Source: Rhea pennata (lineage: Eukaryota; Chordata; Aves; Rheiformes; Rheidae). Taken from it: DNA of 64,000 nt. Position 1 is the stretch's first letter; the number at the start of each line of letters is the position of its first letter. Of the stretch, positions 1 through 32,129 are shown one piece after another. The position numbers and the translations under genes were made by a program. The stretch covers positions 215,970,876 to 216,034,875 of the forward strand of contig NC_084663.1 of NCBI RefSeq assembly GCF_028389875.1. The letters run 5' to 3'. The notes under the pieces were generated by a model. It was not told the origin of the DNA and did not search any database. It saw only the letters and a list, made by a program, of their open reading frames with translations.

Positions 1-3000
1 CGGTCAGTGCACCGCGCGTGGGAGAGCGGTCAGTGCCCAGTGCGTGGGAGAGCGGTCAGTGCACCGTGCGTGGGAGAGCGGTCAGTGCCCCGTGCGTGGG
101 AGAGCGGTCAGTGCACGGTGCATGGGAGAGCGGTCAGTGCACCATGCGTGGGAGAGCGGTCAGTGCACCGTGTGTGGGAGAGCGGTCAGTGCCCCGTGCG
201 TGGGAGAGCGGTCAGTGCACTGTGCGTGGGAGAGCGGTCAGTGCCCCGTGTGTGGGAGAGCGGTCAGTGCCCCGTGCGTGGGAGAGCGGTCAGTGCCCCG
301 TGCGTGGGAGAGCGGTCAGTGCCCCGTGCGTGGGAGAGCGGTCAGTGCACGGTGCGTGGGAGAGCGGTCAGTGCACCGTGCGTGGGAGAGCGGTCACTGC
401 ACCATGCGTGGGAGAGCGGTCAGTGCACGGTGCGTGGGAGAGCGGTCACTGCACCATGCGTGGGAGAGCGGTCAGTGCACGGTGCGTGGGAGAGCGGTCA
501 GTGCACCGTGCGTGGGAGAGCGGTCAGTGCACCGCGCGTGGGAGAGCGGTCAGTGCACGGTGCGTGGGAGAGCGGTCAGTGCACCATGCGTGGGAGAGCG
601 GTCAGTGCACGGTGCGTGGGAGAGCGGTCAGTGCCCCGTGCGTGGGAGAGCGGTCAGTGCACCGTGCGTGGGAGAGCGGTCAGTGCCCCGTGCGTGGGAG
701 AGCGGTCAGTGCCCCGTGCGTGGGAGAGCGGTCAGTGCACCGTGCGTGGGAGAGCGGTCAGTGCCCCGTGCGTGGGAGAGCGGTCACTGCACCGCGCGTG
801 GGAGAGCGGTCACTGCACCATGCGTGGGAGAGCGGTCAGTGCCCCGTGCGTGGGAGAGTGGTCAGTGCACCGCGCGTGGGAGAGTGGTCAGTGCACCGTG
901 CGTGGGAGAGCGGTCAGTGCCCCGTGCGTGGGAGAGTGGTCAGTGCACCGTGCGTGGGAGAGCGGTCAGTGCCCCGTGCGTGGGAGAGCGGTCAGTGCAC
1001 GGTGCCTGGGAGAGCGGTCAGTGCACCATGCGTGGGAGAGCGGTCAGTGCTCCGTGCGTGGGAGAGCGGTCACTGCACCATGCGTGGGAGAGCGGTCAGT
1101 GCTCCGTGCGTGGGAGAGCGGTCAGTGCACCATGCGTGGGAGAGCGGTCAGTGCACGGTGCGTGGGAGAGCGGTCAGTGCACCGCGCGTGGGAGAGCGGT
1201 CACTGCACCGCGCGTGGGAGAGCGGTCAGTGCACCGTGCGTGGGAGAGCGGTCAGTGCACCGTGCGTGGGAGAGCGGTCAGTGCACTGTGCGTGGGAGAG
1301 CGGTCAGTGCTCCGTGCGTGGGAGAGCGGTCACTGCACCATGCGTGGGAGAGCGGTCAGTGCTCCGTGCGTGGGAGAGCGGTCACTGCACCATGCGTGGG
1401 AGAGCGGTCAGTGCACCGTGCGTGGGAGAGCGGTCACTGCACCATGCGTGGGAGAGCGGTCACTGCACGGTGCGTGGGAGAGCGGTCAGTGCCCCGTGCG
1501 TGGGAGAGCGGTCAATGCACCGTGCGTGGGAGAGCGGTCACTGCACCATGCGTGGGAGAGCGGTCAGTGCTCCGTGCGTGGGAGAGCGGTCACTGCACCA
1601 TGCGTGGGAGAGCGGTCAGTGCACCGCGCGTGGGAGAGCGGTCAGTGCACCGCGCGTGGGAGAGCGGTCAGTGCCCCGTGTGTGGGAGAGCGGTCAGTGC
1701 ACCGTGTGTGGGAGAGCGGTCAGTGCCCCGTGCGTGGGAGAGCGGTCACTGCACCGTGCGTGGGAGAGCGGTCAGTGCCCCGTGCGTGGGAGAGCGGTCA
1801 GTGCACGGTGCGTGGGAGAGCGGTCAGTGCACCGTGCGTGGGAGAGCGGTCAGTGCCCCGTGTGTGGGAGAGCGGTCAGTGCACGGTGCGTGGGAGAGCG
1901 GTCAGTGCACGGTGCGTGGGAGAGCGGTCAGTGCACCGCGCGTGGGAGAGCGGTCAGTGCCCCGTGCGTGGGAGAGCGGTCACTGCACCGCGCGTGGGAG
2001 AGCGGTCAGTGCACGGTGCGTGGGAGAGCGGTCACTGCACCGTGCGTGGGAGAGCGGTCAGTGCCCCGTGCGTGGGAGAGCGGTCAGTGCACTGTGCGTG
2101 GGAGAGCGGTCACTGCACCGTGCGTGGGAGAGCGGTCAGTGCCCCGTGCGTGGGAGAGCGGTCAGTGCACTGTGCGTGGGAGAGCGGTCACTGCACCATG
2201 CGTGGGAGAGCGGTCAGTGCTCCGTGCGTGGGAGAGCGGTCACTGCACCGTGCGTGGGAGAGCGGTCAGTGCCCCGTGCGTGGGAGAGCGGTCAGTGCAC
2301 TGTGCGTGGGAGAGCGGTCAGTGCCCCGTGCGTGGGAGAGCGGTCAGTGCACGGTGCCTGGGAGAGCAGTCAGTGCCCCGTGCGTGGGAGAGCGGTCAGT
2401 GCCCCGTGCGTGGGAGAGCGGTCAGTGCACCGTGCGTGGGAGAGCGGTCAGTGCACGGTGCCTGGGAGAGCAGTCAGTGCCCCGTGCGTGGGAGAGCGGT
2501 CACTGCACCGTGCGTGGGAGAGCGGTCAGTGCACGGTGCGTGGGAGAGCGGTCAGTGCACCGTGCGTGGGAGAGCGGTCAGTGCACCGTGCGTGGGAGAG
2601 CGGTCAGTGCTCCGTGCGTGGGAGAGCGGTCACTGCACGGTGCGTGGGAGAGCGGTCAGTGCCCCGTGCGTGGGAGAGCGGTCAGTGCCCCGTGCGTGGG
2701 CGAGCGGTCAGTGCACGGTGCGTGGGAGAGCGGTCAGTGCACGGTGCGTGGGAGAGCGGTCAGTGCCCCGTGCGTGGGAGAGCGGTCAGTGCACTGTGCG
2801 TGGGAGAGCGGTCAGTGCACCGTGCGTGGGAGAGCGGTCAGTGCACGGTGCGTGGGAGAGCGGTCACTGCACCGTGCGTGGGAGAGCGGTCAGTGCACTG
2901 CGCGTGGGAGAGCGGTCTGTGCCCAGTGCGTGGGAGAGCGGTCAGTGCACCGTGCGTGGGAGAGCGGTCACTGCACCGTGCGTGGGAGAGCGGTCAGTGC

Positions 3001-6000
3001 CCCGTGCGTGGGAGAGCGGTCAGTGCACCGCGCGTGGGAGAGCGGTCAGTGCACCGTGCGTGGGAGAGCGGTCAGTGCACCGTGCGTGGGAGAGCGGTCA
3101 GTGCACCGTGCGTGGGAGAGCGGTCAGTGCACTGTGCGTGGGAGAGCGGTCAGTGCCCCGTGCGTGGGAGAGCGGTCAGTGCCCCGTGCGTGGGAGAGCG
3201 GTCACTGCACGGTGCGTAGGAGAGCGGTCAGTGCCCCGTGCGTGGGAGAGCGGTCACTGCACGGTGCGTGGGAGAGCGGTCAGTGCACCATGCGTGGGAG
3301 AGCGGTCACTGCACCATGCGTGGGAGAGCGGTCAGTGCCCCGTGCGTGGGAGAGCGGTCAGTGCACCGTGCGTGGGAGAGCGGTCAGTGCACTGTGCGTG
3401 GGAGAGCGGTCAGTGCCCCGTGCGTGGGAGAGCGGTCACTGCACCGTGCGTGGGAGAGCGGTCAGTGCACCGTGCGTGGGAGAGCGGTCAGTGCACGGTG
3501 CGTGGGAGAGCGGTCAGTGCACCGTGCGTGGGAGAGCGGTCAGTGCCCCGTGCGTGGGAGAGCGGTCAGTGCCCCGCGCGTGGGAGAGCGGTCAGTGCAC
3601 TGTGCGTGGGAGAGCGGTCAGTGCACTGCGCGTGGGAGAGCGGTCAGTGCACCGTGCGTGGGAGAGCGGTCAGTGCACTGTGCGTGGGAGAGCGGTCACT
3701 GCACCGTGCGTGGGAGAGCGGTCAGTGCACTGTGCGTGGGAGAGCGGTCAGTGCACGGTGCGTGGGAGAGCGGTCAGTGCCCCGTGCGTGGGAGAGCGGT
3801 CAGTGCCCCGTGCGTGGGAGAGCGGTCAGTGCACTGTGCGTTGGAGAGCGGTCAGTGCCCCGTGCGTGGGAGAGCGGTCACTGCACCGTGCGTGGGAGAG
3901 CGGTCAGTGCCCCGTGCGTGGGAGAGCGGTCACTGCACCGTGCGTGGGAGAGCGGTCAGTGCCCCGCGCGTGGGAGAGCGGTCAGTGCCCCGTGCCTGGG
4001 AGAGCGGTCAGTGCCCCGTGCGTGGGAGAGCGGTCAGTGCCCCGTGCGTGGGAGAGCGGTCAGTGCACTGTGCGTGGGAGAGCGGTCAGTGCCCCGTGCG
4101 TGGGAGAGCGGTCAGTGCACCGTGTGTGGGAGAGCGGTCAGTGCCCCGTGCGTGGGAGAGCGGTCAGTGCATCGCGCGTGGGAGAGCGGTCAGTGCACTG
4201 TGCGTGGGAGAGCGGTCAGTGCCCCGTGCGTGGGAGAGCGGTCAGTGCACCGCGCGTGGGAGAGCGGTCAGTGCACTGTGCGTGGGAGAGCGGTCAGTGC
4301 CCCGTGCGTGGGAGAGCGGTCAGTGCCCCGTGCGTGGGAGAGCGGTCAGTGCCCCGTGCGTGGGAGAGCGGTCAGTGCACCGCGCGTGGGAGAGCGGTCA
4401 GTGCACTGTGCGTGGGAGAGCGGTCAGTGCCCCGTGCGTGGGAGAGCGGTCAGTGCACTGCGCGTGGGAGAGCGGTCAGTGCACTGTGCGTGGGAGAGCG
4501 GTCAGTGCACCGTGCGTGGGAGAGCGGTCAGTGCACTGCGCGTGGGAGAGCGGTCAGTGCACTGTGCGTGGGAGAGCGGTCAGTGCCCCGTGCGTGGGAG
4601 AGCGGTCAGTGCACCGTGCGTGGGAGAGCGGTCACTGCACTGTGCGTGGGAGAGCGGTCAGTGCCCCGAGCGTGGGAGAGCGGTCAGTGCCCCGTGCGTG
4701 GGAGAGCGGTCAGTGCACTGCGCGTGGGAGAGCGGTCAGTGCACTGTGCGTGGGAGAGCGGTCAGTGCACCGTGCGTGGGAGAGCGGTCAGTGCACTGCG
4801 CGTGGGAGAGCGGTCAGTGCCCCGTGCGTGGGAGAGCGGTCAGTGCACTGTGCGTGGGAGAGCGGTCAGTGCCCCGTGCGTGGGAGAGCGGTCAGTGCCC
4901 CGTGCGTGGGAGAGCGGTCACTGCACCGTGCGTGGGAGAGCGGTCACTGCACCGTGCGTGGGAGAGCGGTCAGTGCACTGCGCGTGGGAGAGCGGTCAGT
5001 GCACTGTGCGTGGGAGAGCGGTCAGTGCCCCGTGCGTGGGAGAGCGGTCAGTGCACTGTGCGTGGGAGAGCGGTCAGTGCACTGCGCGTGGGAGAGCGGT
5101 CAGTGCACTGCGCGTGGGAGAGCGGTCAGTGCCCCGTGCGTGGGAGAGCGGTCAGTGCACCGTGCGTGGGAGAGCGGTCACTGCACCGTGCGTGGGAGAG
5201 CGGTCAGTGCCCCGTGCGTGGGAGAGCGGTCAGTGCTCCGTGCGTGGGAGAGCGGTCAGTGCCCAGTGCGTGGGAGAGCGGTCACTGCACCGTGCGTGGG
5301 AGAGCGGTCAGTGCCCCGTGCGTGGGAGAGCGGTCAGTGCATTGTGCGTGGGAGAGCTGTCAGTGCCCCGTGCGTGGGAGAGCGGTCAGTGCACCGTGCG
5401 TGGGAGAGCGGTCAGTGCACGGTGCGTGGGAGAGCGGTCAGTGCTCCGTGCGTGGGAGAGCGGTCAGTGCATTGTGCGTGGGAGAGTGGTCAGTGCACGG
5501 TGCGTTGGAGAGCGGTCAGTGCACCGTGCGTGGGAGAGCGGTCAGTGCACGGTGCGTGGGAGAGCGGTCAGTGCACTGTGCGTGGGAGAGCGGTCAGTGC
5601 ACCGTGCGTGGGAGAGCGGTCAGTGCCCCGTGCGTGGGAGAGCGGTCAGTGCCCCGTGCGTGGGAGAGCGGTCAGTGCACTGTGCGTGGGAGAGCGGTCC
5701 CTGCACCGTGCGTGGGAGAGCGGTCACTGCACCGTGCGTGGGAGAGCGGTCAGTGCACCGTGCGTGGGAGAGCGGTCACTGCACCGTGCGTGGGAGAGCG
5801 GTCAGTGCCCCGTGCGTGGGAGAGCGGTCAGTGCCCCGTGCGTGGGAGAGCGGTCAGTGCACCGTGCGTGGGAGAGCGGTCAGTGCCCCGTGCGTGGGAG
5901 AGCGGTCAGTGCACCGCGCGTGGGAGAGTGGTCAGTGCCCCGTGCGTGGGAGAGCGGTCAGTGCACCGTGCGTGGGAGAGCGGTCAGTGCCCCGTGCGTG

Positions 6001-9000
6001 GGAGAGCGGTCAGTGCACTGTGCGTGGGAGAGCGCTCAGTGCCCCGTGCGTGGGAGAGCGGTCAGTGCACGGTGCGTGGGAGAGCGGTCAGTGCACTGTG
6101 CGTGGGAGAGCGGTCAGTGCACCGCGCGTGGGAGAGCGGTCAGTGCACTGTGCGTGGGAGAGCGGTCACTGCACCGTGCGTGGCAGAGCGGTCAGTGCCC
6201 CGCGCGTGGGAGAGCGGTCAGTGCACCGTGCGTGGGAGAGCGGTCAGTGCACCGTGCGTGGGAGAGCGGTCAGTGCACTGTGCGTGGGAGAGCGGTCAGT
6301 GCACCGCGCGTGGGAGAGCGGTCAGTGCACCGTGCGTGGGAGTGCGGTCAGTGCACCGCGCGTGGGAGAGCGGTCAGTGCACCGTGCGTGGGAGAGCAGT
6401 CACTGCACCGTGCGTGGGAGAGCGGTCAGTGCACTGTGCGTGGGAGAGCGGTCAGTGCACTGTGCGTGGGAGAGCGGTCAGTGCACCATGCGTGGGAGAG
6501 CGGTCAGTGCACGGTGCGTGGGAGAGCGGTCAGTGCACGGTGCGTGGGAGAGCGGTCAGTGCACCATGCGTGGGAGAGCGGTCAGTGCCCCGTGCGTGGG
6601 AGAGCGGTCAGTGCCCCGTGCGTGGGAGAGCGGTCAGTGCACTGTGCGTGGGAGAGCGGTCAGTGCACCGTGCGTGGCAGAGCGGTCAGTGCACCATGCG
6701 TGGGAGAGCGGTCAGTGCACCGTGCGTGGGAGAGCGGTCAGTGCACCGTGCGTGGGAGAGCGGTCAGTGCACGGTGCGTGGGAGAGCGGTCAGTGCACGG
6801 TGCGTGGGAGAGCGGTCAGTGCACCGTGCGTGGGAGAGCGGTCAGTGCACCGTGCGTGGGAGAGCGGTCAGTGCACTGTGCGTGGGAGAGCGGTCAGTGC
6901 ACGGTGCGTGGGAGAGCGGTCAGTGCACCATGCGTGGGAGAGCGGTCAGTGCACCGTGCGTGGGAGAGCGGTCAGTGCACTGTGCGTGGGAGAGCGGTCA
7001 GTGCACCGTGCGTGGGAGAGCGGTCAGTGCACCGTGCGTGGGAGAGCGGTCAGTGCACTGTGCGTGGGAGAGCGGTCAGTGCACCATGCGTGGGAGAGCG
7101 GTCAGTGCACCGTGCGTGGGAGAGCGGTCAGTGCACTGTGCGTGGGAGAGCGGTCAGTGCACCGTGCGTGGGAGAGCGGTCAGTGCACCATGCGTGGGAG
7201 AGCGGTCAGTGCACGGTGCGTGGGAGAGCGGTCAGTGCACCGTGCGTGGGAGAGCGGTCAGTGCACTGTGCGTGGGAGAGCGGTCAGTGCACCGTGCGTG
7301 GCAGAGCGGTCAGTGCACCGTGCGTGGGAGAGCGGTCAGTGCACCGTGCGTGGGAGAGCGGTCAGTGCACCGTGCGTGGGAGAGCGGTCAGTGCACTGCG
7401 CGTGGGAGAGCGGTCAGTGCACCGTGTGTGGCAGAGCGGTCAGTGCCCCGTGCGTGGGAGAGCGGTCAGTGCCCCGTGTGTGGGAGAGCGGTCAGTGCCC
7501 CGTGCGTGGGAGAGCGGTCAGTGCACTGTGCGTGGGAGAGCGGTCAGTGCACCGTGCGTGGGAGAGCGGTCAGTGCACTGTGCGTGGGAGAGCGGTCAGT
7601 GCACCGTGCGTGGCAGAGCGGTCAGTGCACCGCGCGTGGGAGAGCGGTCAGTGCACTGTGCGTGGGAGAGCGGTCAGTGCACCGTGCGTGGGAGAGCGGT
7701 CAGTGCACCGTGCGTGGCAGAGCGGTCAGTGCACCGCGCGTGGGAGAGCGGTCAGTGCCCCGTGCGTGGGAGAGCGGTCAGTGCACCGTGCGTGGGAGAG
7801 CGGTCAGTGCACGGTGCCTGGGAGAGCAGTCAGTGCCCCGTGCGTGGGAGAGCGGTCACTGCACTGTGCGTGGGAGAGCGGTCAGTGCACCGTGCGTGGG
7901 AGAGCGGTCAGTGCACGGTGTGTGGGAGAGCGGTCACTGCACCGTGCGTGGGAGAGCGGTCAGTGCACTGTGCGTGGGAGAGCGGTCAGTGCACGGTGCG
8001 TGGGAGAGCGGTCAGTGCACGGTGCGTGGGAGAGCGGTCAGTGCCCCATGCGTGGGAGAGCGGTCAGTGCACTGTGCGTGGGAGAGCGGTCAATGCACCG
8101 TGCGTGGGAGAGCGGTCAGTGCACGGTGTGTGGGAGAGCGGTCAGTGCACGGTGCGTGGGAGAGCGGTCACTGCACCGTGCGTGGGAGAGCGGTCAGTGC
8201 ACTGCGCGTGGGAGAGCGGTCAGTGCCCAGTGCGTGGGAGAGCGGTCACTGCACCGTGCGTGGGAGAGCGGTCACTGCACCGTGCGTGGGAGAGCGGTCA
8301 GTGCCCCGTGCGTGGGAGAGCGGTCAGTGCACCGCGCGTGGGAGAGCGGTCAGTGCTCCGTGCGTGGGAGAGCGGTCACTGCACCGTGCGTGGGAGAGCG
8401 GTCAGTGCCCCGTGCGTGGGAGAGCGGTCAGTGCTCCGTGCGTGGGAGAGCGGTCAGTGCACCGTGCGTGGGAGAGCGGTCACTGCACCGTGCGTGGGAG
8501 AGCGGTCAGTGCCCCGTGCGTGGGAGAGCGGTCAGTGCACCGCGCGTGGGAGAGCGGTCAGTGCTCCGTGCGTGGGAGAGCGGTCAGTGCACCGTGCGTG
8601 GGAGAGCGGTCAGTGCACCGCGCGTGGGAGAGCGGTCAGTGCACCGTGCGTGGGAGAGCGGTCAGTGCACTGTGCGTGGGAGAGCGGTCAGTGCACTGTG
8701 CGTGGGAGAGCTGTCAGTGCACGGTGCGTGGGAGAGCGGTCAGTGCCCCGTGCGTGGGAGAGCGGTCAGTGCACCGTGCGTGGGAGAGCGGTCAGTGCAC
8801 TGTGCGTGGGAGAGCGGTCAGTGCCCCGTGCGTGGGAGAGCGGTCAGTGCCCCGTGCGTGGGAGAGCGGTCAGTGCCCCGCGCGTGGGAGAGCGGTCAGT
8901 GCACCGTGCCTGGGAGAGCGGTCAGTGCACCGTGCGTGGGAGAGCGGTCAGTGCCCCGTGCGTGGGAGAGCGGTCAGTGCACTGTGCGTGGGAGAGCGGT

Positions 9001-12000: not shown

Positions 12001-15000
12001 TGCGTGGGAGAGCGGTCAGTGCACCGTGCGTGGGAGAGCGGTCAGTGCACCGTGCGTGGGAGAGCGGTCAGTGCACTGTGCGTGGGAGAGCGGTCAGTGC
12101 ACCGTGCGTGGGAGAGCGGTCACTGCACCGTGCGTGGGAGAGCGGTCAGTGCACCGTGCGTGGCAGAGCGGTCAGTGCACCGTGCGTGGGAGAGCGGTCA
12201 GTGCACCGTGCGTGGGAGAGCGGTCAGTGCACTGTGCGTGGGAGAGCGGTCAGTGCACCGTGCGTGGGAGAGCGGTCAGTGCACTGTGCGTGGGAGAGCG
12301 GTCAGTGCACCGTGCGTGGGAGAGCGGTCAGTGCACTGCGCGTGGGAGAGCGGTCAGTGCCCCGTGTGTGGGAGAGCGGTCAGTGCCCCGTGCGTGGGAG
12401 AGCGGTCAGTGCACTGTGCGTGGGAGAGCGGTCAGTGCCCAGTGCGTGGGAGAGCGGTCAGTGCTCCGTGCGTGGGAGAGCGGTCAGTGCCCAGTGCGTG
12501 GGAGAGCGGTCAGTGCTCCGTGCGTGGGAGTGCGGTCAGTGCACCGTGCGTGGGAGAGCGGTCAGTGCACGGTGCCTGGGAGAGCGGTCAGTGCCCCGTG
12601 CGTGGGAGAGCGGTCACTGCACCGTGCGTGGGAGAGCGGTCAGTGCTCCGTGCGTGGGAGAGCGGTCAGTGCCCCGTGCGTGGGAGAGCAGTCACTGCAC
12701 TGTGCGTGGGAGAGCGGTCAGTGCCCCGTGCGTGGGAGAGCGGTCAGTGCCCCGTGCGTGGGAGAGCGGTCAGTGCATTGTGCGTGGGAGAGCGGTCAGT
12801 GCACCGTGCGTGGGAGAGCGGTCAGTGCACGGTGCGTGGGAGAGCGGTCAGTGCCCCGTGCGTGGGAGAGCGGTCAGTGCACCGTGCGTGGGAGAGCGGT
12901 CAGTGCACCACGCGTGGGAGAGCGGTCAGTGGCCCGTGCGTGGGAGAGCGGTCAGTGCCCCGTGCGTGGGCGAGCAGTCAGTGGCCCGTGCGTGGGAGAG
13001 CGGTCAGTGCACCGTGCGTGGGAGAGCGGTCAGTGCACGGTGCGTGGGAGAGCGGTCAGTGCCCCGTGCGTGGGAGAGCGGTCAGTGCACTGTGCGTGGG
13101 AGAGCGGTCAGTGCCCCGTGCGTGGGAGAGCGGTCAGTGCACCATGCGTGGGAGAGCGGTCAGTGCACCGTGCGTGGGAGAGCGGTCAGTGCCCCGTGCG
13201 TGGGAGAGCGGTCAGTGCACCGTGCGTGGGAGTGCGGTCAGTGCACTGTGCGTGGGAGAGTGGTCAGTGCACGGTGCATGGGAGAGCGGTCAGTGCACCG
13301 TGCGTGGGAGTGCGGTCAGTGCATTGTGCGTGGGAGAGCGGTCAGTGCACCGTGCGTGGGAGAGCGGTCAGTGCACGGTGCGTGGGAGAGCTGTCAGTGC
13401 CCCGTGCGTGGGAGAGCGGTCAGTGCCCCGTGCGTGGGAGAGCGGTCAGTGCACTGTGCGTGGGAGAGCGGTCAGTGCCCCGCGCGTGGGAGAGCGGTCA
13501 GTGCATTGTGCGTGGGAGAGCGGTCAGTGCACTGTGCGTGGGAGAGCGGTCAGTGCCCCGTGCGTGGGAGAGCGGTCAGTGCACCGTGCGTGGGAGAGCG
13601 GTCACTGCACCGTGCGTGGGAGAGCGGTCAGTGCCCCGTGCGTGGGAGAGCGGTCAGTGCACCGTGCGTGGGAGAGCGGTCAGTGCACTGTGCGTGGGAG
13701 AGCGGTCAGTGCCCCGTGCGTGGGAGAGCGGTCAGTGCACTGTGCGTGGGAGAGCGGTCAGTGCCCCGTGCGTGGGAGAGCGGTCAGTGCACCATGCGTG
13801 GGAGAGCGGTCAGTGCACCGTGCGTGGGAGAGCGGTCACTGCACCGTGCGTGGGAGAGCGGTCAGTGCCCCGTGCGTGGGAGAGCGGTCAGTGCACCGCG
13901 CGTGGGAGAGCGGTCAGTGCTCCGTGCGTGGGAGAGCGGTCAGTGCACCGTGCGTGGGAGAGCGGTCAGTGCACCGCGCGTGGGAGAGCGGTCAGTGCAC
14001 CGTGCGTGGGAGAGCGGTCAGTGCACTGTGCGTGGGAGAGCGGTCAGTGCACTGTGCGTGGGAGAGCTGTCAGTGCACGGTGCGTGGGAGAGCGGTCAGT
14101 GCCCCGTGCGTGGGAGAGCGGTCAGTGCCCCGTGCGTGGGAGAGCGGTCAGTGCACCGTGCGTGGGAGAGCGGTCAGTGCACTGTGCGTGGGAGAGCGGT
14201 CAGTGCCCCGCGCGTGGGAGAGCGGTCAGTGCCCCGCGCGTGGGAGAGCGGTCAGTGCACCGTGCGTGGGAGAGCGGTCAGTGCCCCGTGCGTGGGAGAG
14301 CGGTCAGTGCCCCGTGCGTGGGAGAGCGGTCAGTGCACTGTGCGTGGGAGAGCGGTCAGTGCACTGCGCGTGGGAGAGCGGTCAGTGCACCGTGCGTGGG
14401 AGAGCGGTCAGTGCACTGTGCGTGGGAGAGCGGTCAGTGCCCCGTGCGTGGGAGAGCGGTCACTGCACGGTGTGTGGGAGAGCGGTCAGTGCACTGCGCG
14501 TGGGAGAGCGGTCAGTGCACCGTGCGTGGGAGAGCGGTCAGTGCACTGTGCGTGGGAGAGCGGTCAGTGCACTGCGCGTGGGAGAGCGGTCAGTGCCCCG
14601 TGCGTGGGAGAGCGGTCAGTGCCCCGCGCGTGGGAGAGCGGTCAGTGCACTGTGCGTGGGAGAGCGGTCAGTGCACGGTGCGTGGGAGAGCGGTCAGTGC
14701 ACCGTGCGTGGGAGAGCGGTCAGTGCACTGCGCGTGGGAGAGCGGTCAGTGCACCGTGCGTGGGAGAGCGGTCACTGCACGGTGCGTGGGAGAGCGGTCA
14801 GTGCACTGTGCGTGGGAGAGCGGTCAGTGCACGGTGCGTGGGAGAGCGGTCAGTGCATTGTGCGTGGGAGAGCTGTCAGTGCACTGTGCGTGGGAGAGCG
14901 GTCACTGCACCGTGCGTGGGAGAGCGGTCAGTGCACGGTGCGTGGGAGAGCGGTCAGTGCCCCGTGCGTGGGAGAGCGGTCAGTGCACCGCGCGTGGGAG

Positions 15001-18000
15001 AGCGGTCAGTGCTCCGTGCGTGGGAGAGCGGTCACTGCACCGTGCGTGGGAGAGCGGTCAGTGCACGGTGCGTGGGAGAGCGGTCAGTGCCCCGTGCGTG
15101 GGAGAGCGGTCAGTGCACCGCGCGTGGGAGAGCGGTCAGTGCCCCGTGCGTGGGAGAGCGGTCACTGCACCGTGCGTTGGAGAGCGGTCAGTGCCCCGTG
15201 CGTGGGAGAGCGGTCAGTGCACCGTGCGTGGGAGAGCGGTCAGTGCCCCGTGCGTGGGAGAGCGGTCAGTGCACTGTGCGTGGGAGAGCGGTCAGTGCCC
15301 CGTGCGTGGGAGAGCGGTCACTGCACCGCGCGTGGGAGAGCGGTCAGTGCCCCGTGCGTGGGAGAGCGGTCAGTGCACCGTGCGTGGGAGAGCGGTCAGT
15401 GCCCCGTGCGTGGGAGAGTGGTCAGTGCCCCGTGCGTGGGAGAGCGGTCAGTGCCCCGTGCGTGGGAGAGTGGTCAGTGCCCCGTGCGTGGGAGAGCGGT
15501 CACTGCACCATGCGTGGGAGAGCGGTCAGTGCCCCGCGCGTGGGAGAGTGGTCAGTGCCCCGTGCCTGGGAGAGCGGTCAGTGCCCCGTGCGTGGGAGAG
15601 CGGTCAGTGCACTGTGCGTGGGAGAGCGGTCAGTGCCCAGTGCGTGGGAGAGCGGTCAGTGCACCGTGCGTGGGAGAGCGGTCAGTGCACCGCGCGTGGG
15701 AGAGCGGTCAGTGCCCCGTGCGTGGGAGAGCGGTCAGTGCCCCATGCGTGGGAGAGCGGTCACTGCACCGTGCGTGGGAGAGCGGTCCGTGCACCATGCG
15801 TGGGAGAGCGGTCAGTGCCCCGTGCGTGGGAGAGCGGTCAGTGCACTGTGCGTGGGAGAGCGGTCAGTGCCCCGTGCGTGGGAGAGCGGTCAGTGCACTG
15901 CGCGTGGGAGAGCGGTCAGTGCCCCGTGCGTGGGAGAGCGGTCAGTGCACCGTGCGTGGGAGAGCGGTCACTGCACCGTGCGTGGGAGAGCGGTCAGTGC
16001 CCCGTGCGTGGGAGAGCGGTCAGTGCACTGTGCGTGGGAGAGCGGTCACTGCACCGTGCGTGGGAGAGCGGTCAGTGCCCCGTGCGTGGGAGAGCGGTCA
16101 GTGCCCAGTGCGTGGGAGAGCGGTCACTGCACCGTGCGTGGGAGAGCGGTCAGTGCCCAGTGCGAGGGAGAGCGGTCACTGCACCGTGCGTGGGAGAGCG
16201 GTCAGTGCACCGTGCGTGGGAGTGCGGTCAGTGCACTGTGCGTGGGAGAGTGGTCAGTGCACGGTGCGTGGGAGAGCGGTCAGTGCACCGTGCGTGGGAG
16301 TGCGGTCAGTGCATTGTGCGTGGGAGAGCGGTCAGTGCACCGTGCGTGGGAGAGCGGTCAGTGCACGGTGCGTGGGAGAGCTGTCAGTGCCCCGTGCGTG
16401 GGAGAGCGGTCAGTGCCCCGTGCGTGGGAGAGCGGTCAGTGCACTGTGCGTGGGAGAGCGGTCAGTGCCCCGCGCGTGGGAGAGCGGTCAGTGCATTGTG
16501 CGTGGGAGAGCGGTCACTGCACCGTGCGTGGGAGAGCGGTCAGTGCACTGTGCGTGGGAGAGCGGTCAGTGCCCCGTGCGTGGGAGAGCGGTCAGTGCAC
16601 CGTGCGTGGGAGAGCGGTCACTGCACCGTGCGTGGGAGAGCGGTCAGTGCCCAGTGCGAGGGAGAGCGGTCACTGCACCGTGCGTGGGAGAGCGGTCAGT
16701 GCACCGTGCGTGGGAGTGCGGTCAGTGCACTGTGCGTGGGAGAGTGGTCAGTGCACGGTGCGTGGGAGAGCGGTCAGTGCACCGTGCGTGGGAGTGCGGT
16801 CAGTGCATTGTGCGTGGGAGAGCGGTCAGTGCACCGTGCGTGGGAGAGCGGTCAGTGCACGGTGCGTGGGAGAGCTGTCAGTGCCCCGTGCGTGGGAGAG
16901 CGGTCAGTGCCCCGTGCGTGGGAGAGCGGTCAGTGCACTGTGCGTGGGAGAGCGGTCAGTGCCCCGCGCGTGGGAGAGCGGTCAGTGCATTGTGCGTGGG
17001 AGAGCGGTCACTGCACCGTGCGTGGGAGAGCGGTCAGTGCACTGTGCGTGGGAGAGCGGTCAGTGCCCCGTGCGTGGGAGAGCGGTCAGTGCACCGTGCG
17101 TGGGAGAGCGGTCACTGCACCGTGCGTGGGAGAGCGGTCAGTGCCCCGTGCGTGGGAGAGCGGTCAGTGCACCGTGCGTGGGAGAGCGGTCAGTGCACTG
17201 TGCGTGGGAGAGCGGTCAGTGCCCCGTGCGTGGGAGAGCGGTCAGTGCACTGTGCGTGGGAGAGCGGTCAGTGCCCCGTGCGTGGGAGAGCGGTCAGTGC
17301 ACCATGCGTGGGAGAGCGGTCAGTGCACCGTGCGTGGGAGAGCGGTCACTGCACCGTGCGTGGGAGAGCGGTCAGTGCCCCGTGCGTGGGAGAGCGGTCA
17401 GTGCCCAGTGCGTGGGAGAGCGGTCACTGCACCGTGCGTGGGAGAGCGGTCAGTGCCCAGTGCGAGGGAGAGCGGTCAGTGCCCCGTGCGTGGGAGAGCG
17501 GTCAGTGCACCGTGCGTGGGAGTGCGGTCAGTGCACTGTGCGTGGGAGAGTGGTCAGTGCACGGTGCGTGGGAGAGCGGTCAGTGCACCGTGCGTGGGAG
17601 TGCGGTCAGTGCATTGTGCGTGGGAGAGCGGTCAGTGCACCGTGCGTGGGAGAGCGGTCAGTGCACGGTGCGTGGGAGAGCTGTCAGTGCCCCGTGCGTG
17701 GGAGAGCGGTCAGTGCCCCGTGCGTGGGAGAGCGGTCAGTGCACTGTGCGTGGGAGAGCGGTCAGTGCCCCGCGCGTGGGAGAGCGGTCAGTGCATTGTG
17801 CGTGGGAGAGCGGTCAGTGCACTGTGCGTGGGAGAGCGGTCAGTGCCCCGTGCGTGGGAGAGCGGTCAGTGCACCGTGCGTGGGAGAGCGGTCACTGCAC
17901 CGTGCGTGGGAGAGCGGTCAGTGCCCCGTGCGTGGGAGAGCGGTCAGTGCACCGTGCGTGGGAGAGCGGTCAGTGCACTGTGCGTGGGAGAGCGGTCAGT

Positions 18001-21000
18001 GCCCCGTGCGTGGGAGAGCGGTCAGTGCACTGTGCGTGGGAGAGCGGTCAGTGCCCCGTGCGTGGGAGAGCGGTCAGTGCACCATGCGTGGGAGAGCGGT
18101 CACTGCACCGTGCGTGGGAGAGCGGTCAGTGCCCCGTGCGTGGGAGAGCGGTCAGTGCACCGCGCGTGGGAGAGCGGTCAGTGCTCCGTGCGTGGGAGAG
18201 CGGTCAGTGCACCGTGCGTGGGAGAGCGGTCAGTGCACCGCGCGTGGGAGAGCGGTCAGTGCACCGTGCGTGGGAGAGCGGTCAGTGCACTGTGCGTGGG
18301 AGAGCTGTCAGTGCACGGTGCGTGGGAGAGCGGTCAGTGCCCCGTGCGTGGGAGAGCGGTCAGTGCCCCGTGCGTGGGAGAGCGGTCAGTGCACCGTGCG
18401 TGGGAGAGCGGTCAGTGCACTGTGCGTGGGAGAGCGGTCAGTGCCCCGTGCGTGGGAGAGCGGTCAGTGCCCCGCGCGTGGGAGAGCGGTCAGTGCACCG
18501 TGCGTGGGAGAGCGGTCAGTGCCCCGTGCGTGGGAGAGCGGTCAGTGCCCCGTGCGTGGGAGAGCGGTCAGTGCACTGTGCGTGGGAGAGCGGTCAGTGC
18601 ACTGCGCGTGGGAGAGCGGTCAGTGCACCGTGCGTGGGAGAGCGGTCAGTGCACTGTGCGTGGGAGAGCGGTCAGTGCCCCGTGCGTGGGAGAGCGGTCA
18701 CTGCACGGTGTGTGGGAGAGCGGTCAGTGCACTGCGCGTGGGAGAGCGGTCAGTGCACCGTGCGTGGGAGAGCGGTCAGTGCACTGTGCGTGGGAGAGCG
18801 GTCAGTGCACTGCGCGTGGGAGAGCGGTCAGTGCCCCGTGCGTGGGAGAGCGGTCAGTGCCCCGCGCGTGGGAGAGCGGTCAGTGCACTGTGCGTGGGAG
18901 AGCGGTCAGTGCACGGTGCGTGGGAGAGCGGTCAGTGCACCGTGCGTGGGAGAGCGGTCAGTGCACTGCGCGTGGGAGAGCGGTCAGTGCACCGTGCGTG
19001 GGAGAGCGGTCACTGCACGGTGCGTGGGAGAGCGGTCAGTGCACTGTGCGTGGGAGAGCGGTCAGTGCACGGTGCGTGGGAGAGCGGTCAGTGCATTGTG
19101 CGTGGGAGAGCTGTCAGTGCACTGTGCGTGGGAGAGCGGTCACTGCACCGTGCGTGGGAGAGCGGTCAGTGCACGGTGCGTGGGAGAGCGGTCAGTGCCC
19201 CGTGCGTGGGAGAGCGGTCAGTGCACCGCGCGTGGGAGAGCGGTCACTGCACCGTGCGTGGGAGAGCGGTCAGTGCCCCGTGCGTGGGAGAGCGGTCAGT
19301 GCACTGTGCGTGGGAGAGCGGTCAGTGCACCGTGCGTGGGAGAGCGGTCAGTGCCCCGTGCGTGGGAGAGCGGTCAGTGCACTGTGCGTGGGAGAGCGGT
19401 CAGTGCCCCGTGCGTGGGAGAGCGGTCACTGCACCATGCGTGGGAGAGCGGTCAGTGCCCCGCGCGTGGGAGAGTGGTCAGTGCCCCGTGCCTGGGAGAG
19501 CGGTCAGTGCACCGCGCGTGGGAGAGCGGTCAGTGCCCCGTGCGTGGGAGAGCGGTCAGTGCCCCGTGCGTGGGAGAGCGGTCACTGCACCGTGCGTGGG
19601 AGAGCGGTCCGTGCACCATGCGTGGGAGAGCGGTCAGTGCCCCGTGCGTGGGAGAGCGGTCAGTGCACTGTGCGTGGGAGAGCGGTCAGTGCCCCGTGCG
19701 TGGGAGAGCGGTCAGTGCACTGCGCGTGGGAGAGCGGTCAGTGCCCCGTGCGTGGGAGAGCGGTCAGTGCACCGTGCGTGGGAGAGCGGTCACTGCACCG
19801 TGCGTGGGAGAGCGGTCAGTGCCCCGTGCGTGGGAGAGCGGTCAGTGCACTGTGCGTGGGAGAGCGGTCACTGCACCGTGCGTGGGAGAGCGGTCAGTGC
19901 CCCGTGCGTGGGAGAGCGGTCAGTGCCCAGTGCGTGGGAGAGCGGTCACTGCACCGTGCGTGGGAGAGCGGTCAGTGCCCAGTGCGAGGGAGAGCGGTCA
20001 CTGCACCGTGCGTGGGAGAGCGGTCAGTGCCCCGTGCGTGGGAGAGCGGTCAGTGCACCATGCGTGGGAGAGCGGTCAGTGCACGGTGCGTGGGAGAGCG
20101 GTCAGTGCACTGTGCGTGGGAGAGCGGTCAGTGCACGGTGCGTGGGAGAGCGGTCAGTGCCCCGTGCGTGGGAGAGCGGTCAGTGCACCGTGCGTGGGAG
20201 AGCGGTCAGTGCCCCGTGCGTGGGAGAGCGGTCAGTGCATTGTGCGTGGGAGAGCTGTCAGTGCCCCGTGCGTGGGAGAGCGGTCAGTGCCCCGTGCGTG
20301 GGAGAGCGGTCAGTGCATTGTGCGTGGGAGAGCTGTCAGTGCCCCGTGCGTGGGAGAGCGGTCAGTGCCCCGTGCGTGGGAGAGCGGTCAGTGCACGGTG
20401 CGTGGGAGAGCGGTCAGTGCCCCGTGCGTGGGAGAGCGGTCAGTGCACCGCGCGTGGGAGAGCGGTCACTGCACCGTGCGTGGGAGAGCGGTCAGTGCCC
20501 CGTGCGTGGGAGAGCGGTCAGTGCCCCGTGCGTGGGAGAGCGGTCAGTGCACTGTGCGTGGGAGAGCGGTCAGTGCCCCGTGCGTGGGAGAGCGGTCAGT
20601 GCCCCGTGCGTGGGAGAGCGGTCACTGCACCGTGCGTGGGAGAGCGGTCAGTGCCCCGTGCGTGGGAGAGCGGTCAGTGCACCGTGCGTGGGAGAGCGGT
20701 CAGTGCACCATGCGTGGGAGTGCGGTCAGTGCACTGTGCGTGGGAGAGCGGTCAGTGCCCCGTGCGTGGGAGAGCGGTCAGTGCACGGTGCGTGGCAGAG
20801 CGGTCAGTGCCCCGTGCGTGGGAGAGCGGTCAGTGCACTGTGCGTGGGAGAGCGGTCAGTGCCCCGTGCGTGGGAGAGCGGTCAGTGCACCGTGCGTGGG
20901 AGAGCGGTCAGTGCATCGCGCGTGGGAGAGCGGTCAGTGCACTGTGCGTGGGAGAGCGGTCAGTGCACTGCGCGTGGGAGAGCGGTCAGTGCACTGTGCG

Positions 21001-24000
21001 TGGGAGAGCGGTCAGTGCCCCGTGCGTGGGAGAGCGGTCAGTGCACCGTGCGTGGGAGAGCGGTCAGTGCACTGTGCGTGGGAGAGCGGTCAGTGCCCCG
21101 TGCGTGGGAGAGCGGTCACTGCACCGTGCGTGGGAGAGCGGTCAGTGCACTGCGCGTGGGAGAGCGGTCAGTGCACTGTGCGTGGGAGAGCGGTCACTGC
21201 ACCGTGCGTGGGAGAGCGGTCAGTGCACCGTGCGTGGGAGAGCGGTCAGTGCACCATGCGTGGGAGAGCGGTCAGTGCACTGCGCGTGGGAGAGTGGTCA
21301 GTGCCCCGTGCGTGGGAGAGCGGTCAGTGCACCGTGCGTGGGAGAGCGGTCAGTGCCCCGTGCGTGGGAGAGCGGTCAGTGCACCATGCGTGGGAGAGCG
21401 GTCAGTGCACTGCGCGTGGGAGAGTGGTCAGTGCCCCGTGCGTGGGAGAGCGGTCAGTGCACCGTGCGTGGGAGAGCGGTCACTGCACCGTGCGTGGGAG
21501 AGCGGTCAGTGCCCCGTGCGTGGGAGAGCGGTCAGTGCACTGTGCGTGGGAGAGCGGTCAGTGCCCCGTGCGTGGGAGAGCGGTCAGTGCCCAGTGCGTG
21601 GGAGAGCGGTCACTGCACCGTGCGTGGGAGAGCGGTCAGTGCACTGTGCGTGGGAGAGCTGTCAGTGCCCCGTGCGTGGGAGAGCGGTCAGTGCACCGTG
21701 CGTGGGAGAGCGGTCAGTGCCCAGTGCGTGGGAGAGCGGTCACTGCACCGTGCGTGGGAGAGCGGTCAGTGCACGGTGCGTGGGAGAGCGGTCAGTGCCC
21801 CGTGCGTGGGAGAGCGGTCAGTGCCCCGTGCGTGGGAGAGCGGTCAGTGCATTGTGCGTGGGAGAGCTGTCAGTGCCCCGTGCGTGGGAGAGCGGTCACT
21901 GCACCGTGCGTGGGAGAGCGGTCAGTGCCCCGTGCGTGGGAGAGCGGTCAGTGCCCCGTGCGTGGGAGAGCGGTCAGTGCACCGTGCGTGGGAGAGCGGT
22001 CAGTGCACCGTGCGTGGGAGAGCGGTCAGTGCCCCGTGCGTGGGAGAGCGGTCAGTGCACGGTGCGTGGGAGAGCGGTCAGTGCACCGTGCGTGGGAGAG
22101 CGGTCAGTGCCCCGTGCGTGGGAGAGCGGTCAGTGCACGGTGCGTGGGAGAGCGGTCAGTGCACCGTGCGTGGGAGAGCGGTCACTGCACCGTGCGTGGG
22201 AGAGCGGTCAGTGCACCGTGCGTGGGAGAGCGGTCAGTGCCCCGTGCGTGGGAGAGCGGTCAGTGCACGGTGCGTTGGAGAGCGGTCAGTGCACCGTGCG
22301 TGGGAGAGCGGTCAGTGCCCCGTGTGTGGGAGAGCGGTCACTGCACCGTGCGTGGGAGAGCGGTCAGTGCCCCGTGCGTGGGAGAGCGGTCAGTGCCCCG
22401 TGCGTGGGAGAGCGGTCAGTGCACGGTGCGTGGGAGAGCGGTCAGTGCCCCGTGCGTGGGAGAGCGGTCAGTGCACGGTGCGTGGGAGAGCGGTCAGTGC
22501 ACCGTGCGTGGGAGAGCGGTCAGTGCCCCGTGCGTGGGAGAGCGGTCAGTGCACGGTGCGTGGGAGAGCGGTCAGTGCACTGTGCGTGGGAGAGCGGTCA
22601 CTGCACCGCGCGTGGGAGAGCGGTCAGTGCACCGTGCGTGGGAGAGCGGTCAGTGCCCCGTGTGTGGGAGAGCGGTCACTGCACCGTGCGTGGGAGAGCG
22701 GTCACTGCACCGTGCGTGGGAGAGCGGTCAGTGCACGGTGTGTGGGAGAGCGGTCACTGCACCATGCGTGGGAGAGCGGTCAGTGCCCCGTGCGTGGGAG
22801 AGCGGTCAGTGCACCGCGCGTGGGAGAGCGGTCAGTGCACTGTGCGTGGGAGAGCGGTCAGTGCACGGTGCGTGGGAGAGCGGTCAGTGCACGGTGTGTG
22901 GGAGAGCGGTCACTGCACCATGCGTGGGAGAGCGGTCAGTGCCCCGTGCGTGGGAGAGCGGTCAGTGCCCCGTGCGTGGGAGAGCGGTCAGTGCACGGTG
23001 CGTGGGAGAGCGGTCAGTGCACTGTGCGTGGCAGAGCGGTCAGTGCCCCGTGCGTGGGAGAGCGGTCACTGCACCGTGCGTGGGAGAGCGGTCAGTGCCC
23101 CGCGCGTGGGAGAGCGGTCAGTGCCCCGTGCGTGGGAGAGCGGTCAGTGCACCGCGCGTGGGAGAGCGGTCAGTGCACCATGCATGGGAGAGCGGTCAGT
23201 GCCCCGTGCGTGGGAGAGCGGTCAGTGCCCCGTGCGTGGGAGAGCGGTCAGTGCACTGTGCGTGGGAGAGCAGTCAGTGCACCGTGCGTGGGAGAGCGGT
23301 CAGTGCACTGTGCGTGGGAGAGCAGTCAGTGCACCGTGCGTGGGAGAGCGGTCAGTGCACCATGCATGGGAGAGCGGTCAGTGCCCCGTGCGTGGGAGAG
23401 CGGTCAGTGCACTGTGCGTGGGAGAGCGGTCAGTGCCCCGTGCGTGGGAGAGCGGTCAGTGCACTGTGCGTGGGAGAGCAGTCAGTGCACCGTGCGTGGG
23501 AGAGCGGTCAGTGCACTGTGCGTGGGAGAGTGGTCAGTGCACTGTGCGTGGGAGAGCGGTCAGTGCCCCGTGCGTGGGAGAGCGGTCAGTGCCCCGCGCG
23601 TGGGAGAGCGGTCAGTGCCCCGTGCATGGGAGAGCGGTCAGTGCACTGTGCGTGGGAGAGCGGTCAGTGCACCGTGCGTGGGAGAGCGGTCAGTGCACTG
23701 TGCGTGGGAGAGCGGTCAGTGCACTGTGCGTGGGAGAGCGGTCAGTGCCCCGTGCGTGGGAGAGCGGTCAGTGCACCATGCGTGGGAGAGCGGTCAGTGC
23801 ACCGTGCGTGGGAGAGCGGTCAGTGCACTGTGCGTGGGAGAGTGGTCAGTGCACTGTGCGTGGGAGAGCGGTCAGTGCACCGCGCGTGGGAGAGCGGTCA
23901 GTGCCCCGTGCGTGGGAGAGCGGTCAGTGCCCCGTGCATGGGAGAGCGGTCAGTGCCCCGTGCGTGGGAGAGCGGTCAGTGCCCCGTGCGTGGGAGAGCG

Positions 24001-25350
24001 GTCAGTGCCCCGTGCGTGGGAGAGCGGTCAGTGCCCCGTGCGTGGGAGAGCGGTCAGTGCCCCGTGCGTGGGAGAGCGGTCAGTGCACCGTGCGTGGGAG
24101 AGCGGTCAGTGCACTGTGCGTGGGAGAGCGGTCAGTGCACGGTGCGTGGGAGAGCGGTCAGTGCCCCGTGCGTGGGAGAGCGGTCAGTGCACCGTGCGTG
24201 GGAGAGCGGTCAGTGCACGGTGCGTGGGAGAGCGGTCAGTGCCCCGTGCGTGGGAGAGCAGTCAGTGCACCGTGCGTGGGAGAGCGGTCAGTGCACTGCG
24301 CGTGGGAGAGCGGTCAGTGCTCCGTGCGTGGGAGAGCGGTCAGTGCCCCGTGCGTGGGAGAGCGGTCAGTGCACCATGCGTGGGAGTGCGGTCAGTGCAC
24401 GGTGCGTGGGAGAGCGGTCAGTGCACTGTGCGTGGGAGAGCGGTCAGTGCCCCGTGCGTGGGAGAGCGGTCACTGCACGGTGCGTGGGAGAGCGGTCAGT
24501 GCCCCATGCGTGGGAGTGCGGTCAGTGCACGGTGCGTGGGAGAGTGGTCAGTGCACGGTGCATGGGAGAGTGGTCACTGCTCCGTGCGTGGGAGAGCGGT
24601 CAGTGCCCCGTGCGTGGGAGAGCGGTCAGTGCACCGTGCGTGGGAGAGCGGTCAGTGTCCCGTGCGTGGGAGAGCGGTCAGTGCACCGCGCGTGGGAGAG
24701 CGGTCAGTGCCCCGTGTGTGGGAGAGCGGTCAGTGCACCATGCGTGGGAGAGCGGTCAGTGCACCGTGCGTGGGAGAGCGGTCAGTGCCCCGTGCGTGGG
24801 AGAGCGGTCAGTGCACCGTGCGTGGGAGAGCGGTCAGTGCCCCGTGCGTGGGAGAGCGGTCAGTGCCCCGTGCGTGGGAGAGCGGTCAGTGCACCGTGCG
24901 TGGGAGAGCGGTCAGTGCCCCGTGTGTGGGAGAGCGGTCAGTGCACCATGCGTGGGAGAGCGGTCAGTGCACCGTGTGTGGGAGAGCGGTCAGTGCACCG
25001 TGCGTGGGAGAGCGGTCAGTGCACCGTGCGTGGGAGAGCGGTCAGTGCCCCGTGCGTGGGAGAGCGGTCAGTGCACCGTGCGTGGGAGAGCGGTCAGTGC
25101 CCCGTGTGTGGGAGAGCGGTCAGTGCACCATGCGTGGGAGAGCGGTCAGTGCACCGTGTGTGGGAGAGCGGTCAGTGCACCGTGCGTGGGAGAGCGGTCA
25201 CTGCACTGTGCGTGGGAGAGCGGTCAGTGCACCATGCGTGGGAGAGCGGTCAGTGCACCGTGCGTGGGAGAGCGGTCAGTGCACCGTGCGTGGGAGAGCG
25301 GTCAGTGCCCCGTGCGTGGGAGAGCGGTCAGTGCACCGTGCACGTGAGAG
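1..25350 (+). repeat. Giant 26-bp tandem (minisatellite/satellite) array, ~974 units
   Basis: The whole stretch is a head-to-tail array of a 26-bp unit. Each unit has a nearly invariant 17-nt core, GGGAGAGCGGTCAGTGC, followed by a variable 9-nt linker (typically ACCGTGCGT or CCCGTGCGT). The core-internal tetramer CGGT falls at position 1, at 27, and still at 25325; 25324 = 974 x 26, so there is no net insertion or deletion across the array. The unit is about 69% GC, G-rich on the + strand and has about three CpGs. Variation is mostly substitution at a few linker positions (A/C/T after the core; C/T/G/A two bases later; CG to CA or TG) plus G to C inside CAGTGC. The array begins mid-unit at base 1, so it continues to the left. 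The last units decay at 25340-25350 (CACGTGAGAGAGG). It contains no unique sequence. I do not recognise it as a named avian satellite. Confidence 0.98.
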
Positions 25351-26079: not shown

Positions 26080-27618
26080 ATGGGGCGCCCGGTGCCGCTG
26101 CTGCTGCTGCTGCTGCTGCTGCCGCTGCTGCCACCGCCGCCGGGGCTCCCGGGGGCCGGCGCAGCCCCGCGCCGCCGGCACCTCTTCCCCGTGAAGGAGG
26201 TGCCGCTGGACATGGCCCCCGACGCCTTCGACGACGAGTACCGGGGCTGCGCCGGCGCCATGGAGGCCGAGCTGGCGGAGCTGAACCGCTCCGAGATGGC
26301 CGTCAACCCCGTGTACGCGGCGGCGTGGGCCAGCGCCGCGGGGCGGTGGGGCGAGCGGCGGCACGCGGCGCCCCGGCCGCGGGGCCTCACGCCGGAGCAG
26401 GAGACGGCCATCCTGGCGTACACCATGCAGAGCCCGCTGCACGGCGCCTTCAACGCGGCCGTGCGGGAGGCCGGCCGCTCCGGCCGCCACTACCTCGACC
26501 GCTTCCACTTCAAGACCCTGCACTTCCTCCTGAGCAGGGGGGTGCAGGCGCTGCGCGGCGCCCAGCCCCGGCGCTGCCGCAGGGTCTACCGCGGCGTCAG
26601 CGGCGTCCGCTTCGCCGCCACGCCGCGCCGCGCCGTCCGCTTCGGCCACTTCGCCTCCTCGTCGCTGAAGAACGCCAGCGCCTGGCGCTTCGGCCACGAC
26701 ACCTTCTTCTCCGTGGAGACCTGCTACGGCGTCGCCATCAGGAACTTCTCCTTCTTCCCCGACGAGGACGAGGTCCTCATCCCGCCCTCCGAGAGATTCG
26801 AGGTCGCCAGCGTGGCCCGCGCCGGCAGCCAGGTGCTCATCGAGCTCCGCTCCAAGGGCTTGCACAGCTCCTACAACTGCGAGTTCGTGCAAGGTGAGGT
26901 GTCTGCGGGGCCTGGCTGGTGCGGTGCAGCGCGGTGCAGCACTGCACAGCGTGGCACAACACAGTGCATTGCAGCGCATCTCAGTGCAGTGCAGTGAAGC
27001 ACAGTGCAGCGGGGTGCAATGTGGTGCAGCATGGTACATCGCAGTGCAGCGCGGTACAGCGCAGCACAGCATGATGCAGCATGGTGTAGCATGATGCAGA
27101 ACAGTGCAGTGTGGTGCATCATGATGCAGCACGATGCAGTGCAATGCAGTGCAGTGCAGCATGATGCAGAGCAGCACAGCATGGTGCAGCACGAGGTAGT
27201 GCAGTGCAGCACGGCGCAGCGTGGTGCAGCATTTTGCAGCACGGTGCAGCATGATGCAGTGCAACGCAGTGCAGTGCAGCGTGCTGCAGCGCAGTACAGC
27301 ATGGTGCAGCGCGGTGCAGCTTCCCTGCCATGTGCAGCTGCACGAGGGCAGAGCACAGGGCCCGTTGCACCACAGCTCCATGCACATTGCTGCTTTCCTT
27401 GGCAGAGAAAAGATGCAAGACGCGGCCGTGCGTGTTCAGCGCAGGTAAGGGAGCGGCTGCTGGCCCGACTTCCCTGGGAATTCCCCCTCGGTGCCCTCCC
27501 GGCAGTCACTAACCCCCCTGCTCTGGTGTCCCCAGGCAGGAGCAGCCCGGGGGCCCCCCCCAGCCTCTGGGGGCTGCTCCTGGCAGCCGGTGCCCTGATG
27601 GCAGCAGGAGGCCCCTGA
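26080..27618 (+). CDS. ART1: GPI-anchored arginine-specific mono-ADP-ribosyltransferase (ART1-type), 3 exons
   Basis: Predicted coding exons are 26080-26893, 27406-27444 and 27536-27618, all with GT-AG introns (AAG|GTGAGG, GCAG|GTAAGG), giving 311 aa. Residues 1-~27 are a leucine-rich signal peptide. The R-S-E catalytic triad of ecto-ARTs is present: R171 in VYRGV, the serine cluster at 193-195 in FASSSL, and E229-D-E231 before VLIPP. The E-x-E form is the one linked to arginine specificity. Cysteines at 57, 166, 215, 267, 275 and 280 fit the family's disulfides. Sites for N-glycosylation are at N69, N198 and N222. Exon 3 ends in a hydrophobic tail (SLWGLLLAAGALMAAGG), the usual GPI-attachment signal. 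Known family role: NAD+-dependent ADP-ribosylation of extracellular protein arginines. It lies tail-to-tail with CHRNA10 as mammalian ART1 does, hence the symbol; ART5 or a bird-specific paralogue is the alternative. The start has good context (GCGATGG). Confidence 0.9.
26921..27320 (+). repeat. 10-bp tandem array in ART intron 1 (40 units)
   Basis: Forty consecutive 10-mers close to ATGGTGCAGC (variants ACGATGCAGT, GCAGTGCAGC, GTGGTGCATC) run in perfect register from 26921 to 27320, starting 27 bp after the donor and ending 85 bp before the next acceptor. The unit has no stop codon in most phases of either strand, so long spurious open frames appear in both directions over it. It fills most of the 512-bp intron. 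Confidence 0.95.
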
Positions 27619-27877: not shown

Positions 27878-28139
27878 AATATTGCTCAGGGACGGGGAGG
27901 CATCCGGAGGGTTTCCTGCGGCTCCCAGCAGAGCGGGGCAGGGAGGAGCCAGCTGTCTGCCAGCCCGGCCTGGCGCTGCAGCCAGCCTGCACCACCTGCC
28001 CAGGCTCCTGTGCCCAGGGCAGCAGAAATGCCCGAAAGTCACTGGCCGAGCACTCTTGTGTCCGGCACCCTCTGCCCTGGCAGGCAGTGAGAACCGCATC
28101 TGTCCCGTAGCCATACAGCAGCCCTGAGTGCCCTGCAGG

Positions 28140-32114: not shown

Positions 32115-32129
32115 GCCCGCGCGGCCCCG

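Follow-up and report, generated by a model that had tools for sequence, protein, structure and literature searches.

A substitution-only 26-bp minisatellite array beside an ADP-ribosyltransferase reading frame in Rhea pennata

The first 25 kb of a 64,000-nucleotide stretch of the Rhea pennata genome (NCBI RefSeq assembly GCF_028389875.1, contig NC_084663.1, forward-strand positions 215,970,876 to 216,034,875, hereafter the window, with positions counted from its first letter) are occupied by a tandem array of a 26-bp unit, of which 974 full copies follow one another head to tail with no insertion or deletion (indel) among them. In all likelihood this is a large minisatellite, rich in guanine and cytosine (GC, about 69%), that evolves by homologous exchange in register with its own repeat and would need no function to keep its unit length constant. 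Base 1 of the window already lies within the repeat, so the array likely continues to the left.

A sequence-only reading of the window had proposed that the array carries no net indel and diverges by substitution alone, and this is borne out for all 974 full units. A wraparound alignment of 1-25324 in which indels were permitted gives 1061 mismatches, 0 insertions and 0 deletions, and the compensating insertions and deletions that would have spoken against the proposal are absent from that unit-by-unit alignment. Two of the checks it had suggested agree: Tandem Repeats Finder (TRF) reports a single array at 1-25341 with 93% matches, 0% indels and periods of 52, 78 and 130 (multiples of 26), and self-identity peaks at 0.928 for a shift of 26, vs. 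0.167 and 0.168 for shifts of 25 and 27. The array consensus unit is CGGTCAGTGCACCGTGCGTGGGAGAG, from which the 974 fixed 26-base slices differ at no position (157 slices), one (594), two (202) or, at the maximum, three (21). The register that the reading had drawn as far as a marker at 25325 thus holds for 974 units; the edge unit that begins there may be 28 bp long.

The features tested are those of a minisatellite. The 26-bp unit and its 974 full copies lie within the 9–100 bp given for minisatellite units in the part of PMC2599865 available to us, variant-length units are absent over 1-25324 (the edge unit, number 975, is ambiguous), and the 974 units fall into 72 types that are interspersed along the array and map its internal structure. 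Gain, loss and conversion of whole units are visible as a footprint in one sequence, in the form of block duplications and whole-unit gaps. A higher-order repeat satellite was considered and rejected, as among lags of 1–399 units none is prominent array-wide and the best whole-unit identity is only 0.155, vs. 0.108 by chance.

Block duplications carry the argument for exchange. Exact shared runs of at least five units number 42, whereas 20 shuffled orderings of the units average 5.75, and the longest spans 30 units, vs. at most 6 in the same shuffles. Among the ten lags examined, the longest exact repeat is 797 bp at a lag of 163 units (at 14212 and 18450). The sequence-only reading had listed landmark spacings of 494, 806, 2990, 4238 and 5356 as further signs of register. 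They are indeed exact multiples of 26 (19, 31, 115, 163 and 206 units), but they do not serve as independent landmarks, since each is the distance between two exact copies of a block within the array (longest exact matches of 545, 333, 248, 797 and 334 bases, respectively), and they are multiples of 26 because the copies were made in register.

Unit-level self-alignment, in which at most eight pairs were requested, reached a best score of 159.2, vs. 11.8 in one shuffled control. The largest pair (units 507–622 and 672–769, counted from 0), which includes the 797-bp exact repeat, has 98 aligned units, of which 94 are identical, with 6 base differences and 18 whole-unit gaps, and an older-looking pair (units 204–289 and 392–477) has 80 aligned units, 51 of them identical, with 49 base differences and 12 gaps. 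Taking each unit as a whole, the self-alignment is blind to changes in part of a unit; these are excluded because the indel-permitting base alignment of 1-25324 found none. Exact duplicated blocks of at least seven units cover 272 of the 974 units, with 203 of these in units 485–775 and none in units 0–96 or 776–973.

The variation within units tells a similar story at a finer scale. It takes no fewer than 28 substitution alleles to account for the data, and 28 underlie the 974 units; pi is 1.76. Among the 224 allele pairs in which neither allele is a CpG transition, 18 are found in all four combinations inside a 26-base span, as expected from exchange inside units. Together with the exact blocks of up to 30 units and the whole-unit gaps, these mixed alleles support one of the two causes that the sequence-only reading had offered for the regularity, namely exchange moving whole units; the other, selection on spacing, found no support in anything we observed. 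CpG transitions were seen at 6 of the 6 possible sites, vs. 5 of the 20 other possible transitions (Fisher P = 0.002). The array as a whole is CpG-dense, with 2668 CpG at an observed/expected ratio of 0.97, and each of the six CpG positions in the unit shows transitions. CpG density and CpG transitions in combination suggest germline methylation together with ongoing renewal of the array.

We propose that unequal crossing-over and gene conversion, held in register with the 26-bp repeat, would change the array by blocks of units, which are gained, lost or overwritten, and would keep unit length even where a breakpoint falls within a unit. Point mutations, often at CpG sites, would start in single units and then spread through block copying. 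The constant length may then reflect two circumstances: few independent mutations would lie behind the present units, and the 26-mer would offer little occasion for slippage, its homopolymer runs reaching no more than 3 bases in the consensus and 4 in the variants. As the units are copies of each other, the opportunities for an independent indel are fewer than 25 kb of array would suggest.

We simulated in-register block copying with substitutions and a class of indels, in 15 settings of 12 replicates each with parameters of our own choosing. For the five settings nearest to the observed array, which were picked by judgement after the results were known and within a model that holds fixed-length copying only, the probability of no indel is 0.43–0.66, 0.12–0.36 and 0.016–0.13 at indel:substitution ratios of 0.02, 0.05 and 0.1, respectively. 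Under this model, zero indels would be unremarkable at a low indel:substitution ratio, and a low ratio is favored here because CpG transitions inflate the substitutions and the runs in the unit are short.

Several observations weigh against this account. No simulated setting fit all of the observed values (pi of 1.76, 28 alleles, 72 types and 8 invariant columns), zero indels would be unlikely in the model at an indel:substitution ratio of 0.1 or above, and our literature search found no measured ratio for comparable DNA; the part of PMC4563830 available to us gives an indel density of 0.78 per kb in chicken and no ratio of indels to single-nucleotide polymorphisms. The array contains 280 runs of four C without any indel, so short runs alone are not a full account. 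The allele pairs with all four combinations can equally arise by repeated mutation. Finally, adjacent units are identical less often than in shuffled order (0.073, z = −3.7), which single-unit duplication does not give and copying of longer blocks could give. Identity at lags of 3, 5 and 8 units is above that of the shuffles (z = 4.1, 5.5 and 4.9; 20 lags examined, 500 shuffles), and the depressed neighbor identity and these raised lags point to copying of multi-unit blocks rather than of single units.

A second minisatellite in the same window, at 28.1 kb, provides a comparison, and the difference in length behavior that the sequence-only reading had noted between the two arrays is real. Its 152 parsed units are 19 bases (71 units), 18 bases (51) or 17 bases (30) long and cover 2777 of its 2808 bases with no internal gaps. 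The parsing pattern requires a 10-base first half, and as no inner base was left unparsed, no unit was lost to this requirement. The first 10 bases are of constant length and only the G-rich remainder varies, with runs of five and six G (54 and 19 in the array, respectively), whereas the 26-bp array has no run above 4. The length contrast between the two arrays thus fits their sequence composition. To treat variable unit length as the rule for ordinary minisatellites was itself too general, as the human minisatellite MSY1 (25 bp) never shows variant-length units according to the part of PMC2599865 we could consult. A 49-bp array at 36087-36679, with 11% indels by TRF, offers a second contrast.

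The right end of the array is the one place where an indel may be present. Unit 975 admits two readings: 26 ungapped bases with 3 mismatches, or 28 bases that include a 2-bp insertion and 1 mismatch. Neither scores higher than the other under two linear gap schemes, and an affine scheme favors the insertion. To its right, in-register agreement is 8 of 13 bases and then 3 of 13. Right of 25330 no further copy of the unit occurs in the window on the plus strand at 9 or fewer mismatches, and the single unit-like match on the minus strand, with 9 mismatches, is taken as chance. A degenerate edge unit that is also the sole candidate for an indel would fit exchange that renews the inner units and fails at the edge, as far as a single unit can indicate.

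Among the alternatives, the one that survives best, and which we nevertheless consider unlikely, is that assembly has partly produced the regularity or the copy number, with indels polished away or blocks falsely duplicated. Assembler errors are typical of long exact repeats such as those within this array, which reach 797 bp. Against an artefact, the duplicated blocks differ in bases and in whole-unit gaps at several lags, rather than forming one clean duplicate, the 72 unit types that are retained mean that variation was not flattened, and the 28.1-kb array in the same sequence retains its length variation.

A second alternative is that the spacing is selected, for example through a protein bound to each unit that needs a fixed 26-bp period, and that the array perhaps regulates the neighboring arginine ADP-ribosyltransferase (ART) gene. 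A period of 26 bp corresponds to about two and a half helical turns. The absence of indels across 974 units and the closeness of the gene (the distance from the array end is about 650 bp to a TATA-like CTATAAAAAG at 26001 and about 730 bp to the ART start codon) are what such selection might produce, but block turnover accounts for the spacing unaided. There is also no clear sign of constraint in the unit itself: 8 of its 26 columns are invariant, vs. about 6.7 by hand arithmetic for 28 alleles placed at random among 78 possible ones, and several unit positions vary freely. We therefore regard selection on spacing as very unlikely. The more specific proposal that the array is a regulatory or structural platform upstream of the ADP-ribosyltransferase gene, with one predicted protein-bound site per 26 bp and a selected period, has in our estimation a very slight chance of being correct; if it were, unit length should be conserved across species as sequence and copy number change.

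It has also been argued for the 25-bp MSY1 unit that a hairpin is linked to its constant length (PMC2599865, from the part available), and a single-strand hairpin in the 26-bp unit could likewise fix its length via a structure-dependent mutation process. Neighboring units can pair, with minimum energies of −7.9 and −7.0 kcal/mol for two dimers, and all six array sequences folded are slightly more stable than the mean of their shuffles. The excess is small for the two dimers (z = −0.14 and −0.18, with 79 and 80 of 200 shuffles as stable). For two 130-base regions, each folded on both strands, z is −1.04, −1.63, −1.09 and −1.63, and these four pieces are matched in stability by 8 to 32 of 200 shuffles. 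On either strand, a piece taken from the 28.1-kb array is less stable than the shuffle mean (z = 0.64 and 1.47), in the direction expected if structure mattered. With departures of this size, we consider it highly improbable that a hairpin sets the unit length.

Least credible of all, to the point of being negligible, is that the array belongs to a giant protein-coding exon: plus-strand frames 2 and 3 run without a stop across the array for 8,470 and 8,510 codons, the third has stops within it only at 3217 and 25345, and stop-making alleles are weakly depleted (1 of 28 observed vs. 11 of 78 possible, P = 0.042, uncorrected), but the frames are open because the consensus unit contains no stop codon. 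As 26 does not divide by three, the three frames give one 26-residue repeat in different phases; a 1-bp indel would shift the phase and nothing else, and selection on coding could therefore not hold the unit at 26 bp. The translation of 3-6000, sampled from one frame, has a single Pfam match above cutoff, to the phage anti-CRISPR family AcrF3 (41.8 bits, cutoff 27); this match has no stretch that passes alone and is evidently compositional, a false family call on a repetitive translation. The coding interpretation was rejected on these grounds.

Features located in the window, with positions counted from its first letter
Feature	Position	Strand	Basis
26-bp array, 974 head-to-tail full units	1..25324	.	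TRF, fixed slicing, indel-permitting alignment
Largest block duplication, copy one (units 507–622, from 0)	13183..16198	.	unit-level self-alignment
Largest block duplication, copy two (units 672–769)	17473..20020	.	unit-level self-alignment
Unit 975, degenerate edge unit, right array end	25325..25350 (25352 if read as 28 bases)	.	edge alignment
Arginine ADP-ribosyltransferase (ART family) open reading frame	26080..26994	+	Pfam PF01129, E 8e-81
Comparison minisatellite, 152 parsed units of 17–19 bp	28135..30942	.	TRF, unit parsing
Neurotransmitter-gated channel exons	32494-34244	-	Pfam
Neurotransmitter-gated channel piece, below cutoff	34691-35203	-	Pfam
Three Nup96-matching stretches	between 41089 and 45745	-	Pfam

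The genes to the right of the array were placed by a Pfam search of ten translated stretches, eight of which matched at E of 0.01 or better; 51420-51674 and 61019-61324 gave no Pfam match. We take the neighbors to be ART1, CHRNA10 and NUP98, presumably in the same gene order as in human, and the protein of the minus-strand frame at 51420-51674 presumably resembles the end of a CR1-type retroelement. A tandem stretch rich in TGCAG/GTGCAGC at 26921-27320 overlaps the 3' end of the ADP-ribosyltransferase frame, the C-terminal end of which may be repeat-derived. From 25350 to 37000 the array is followed by a 12-kb GC-rich stretch, at 64–79% GC when taken 1 kb at a time, which holds at least five other tandem arrays; at 37 kb GC drops from 0.71 to 0.50, by 40 kb it is about 0.40, and it stays at 33–50% from 37 kb on (1-kb steps). 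No Rfam family reached its gathering score in 25–64 kb, and a tRNA search with bacterial settings returned none in the window.

Among the matches listed by our literature search, and within the portions of those papers available to us, we found no account of this particular array, and no 26-bp avian minisatellite is described there. A search on a 26-bp tandem repeat on a chicken microchromosome returned a general satellite review alone, GTGCGTGGGAGAG is not printed in any paper found, and no paper treating chicken ART1, NUP98 and CHRNA10 together was retrieved. Neither "26 bp" nor "26-bp" occurs in the main text of the chicken repeat survey (PMC4992247) or of the complete chicken genome (PMC9974502), and "26 bp" does not occur in the accessible part of PMC12954441.

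With 72 distinguishable types in perfect register, the array is a natural record of tandem turnover, open to direct reading of the size and distance of its blocks and of the whole units gained or lost. Its freedom from indels over 25 kb of repeats would reflect few independent mutations. A long CpG-dense array placed before a gene could also affect the methylation of that gene and mislead short-read studies of it.

Among known tandem repeats, MS32 has a 29-bp unit with substitution variants and PO41 of chicken has a 41-bp unit. The MS32-type GC-rich autosomal hypervariable minisatellites are, like the Rhea array, rich in GC, with interspersed variants and a unit of 9–100 bp, and CNM and PO41 are likewise large bird tandem repeats, the CNM unit being 41 bp in the part of the source available. 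The local repeat expansions of avian dot chromosomes, termed sequence stuttering, are also GC-rich tandem expansions in or near genes, but they are described in the accessible part of PMC12954441 as imperfect, less organized than microsatellites, intronic and predominantly on dot chromosomes, whereas the register of the Rhea array is perfect and the DNA of the window from 37 kb on is 33–50% GC. The closest likeness in unit behavior is to human MSY1 (DYF155S1), which, in the part of PMC2599865 at hand, shares with the Rhea array a near-equal unit size, base-substitution variants, a constant unit length and changes by whole units. MSY1 itself, on the non-recombining Y, is 75% A+T, with 48–118 units in a block arrangement and a unit predicted to form a hairpin; the Rhea array differs in being about 69% GC, in having 974 full units in the window, in the interspersion of its variants, a pattern reported in the same source to be high at many autosomal minisatellite loci, and in folding only slightly better than its shuffles. 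By the features tested, the array is a minisatellite, unusually large and clean, whose constant unit length has a precedent in MSY1.

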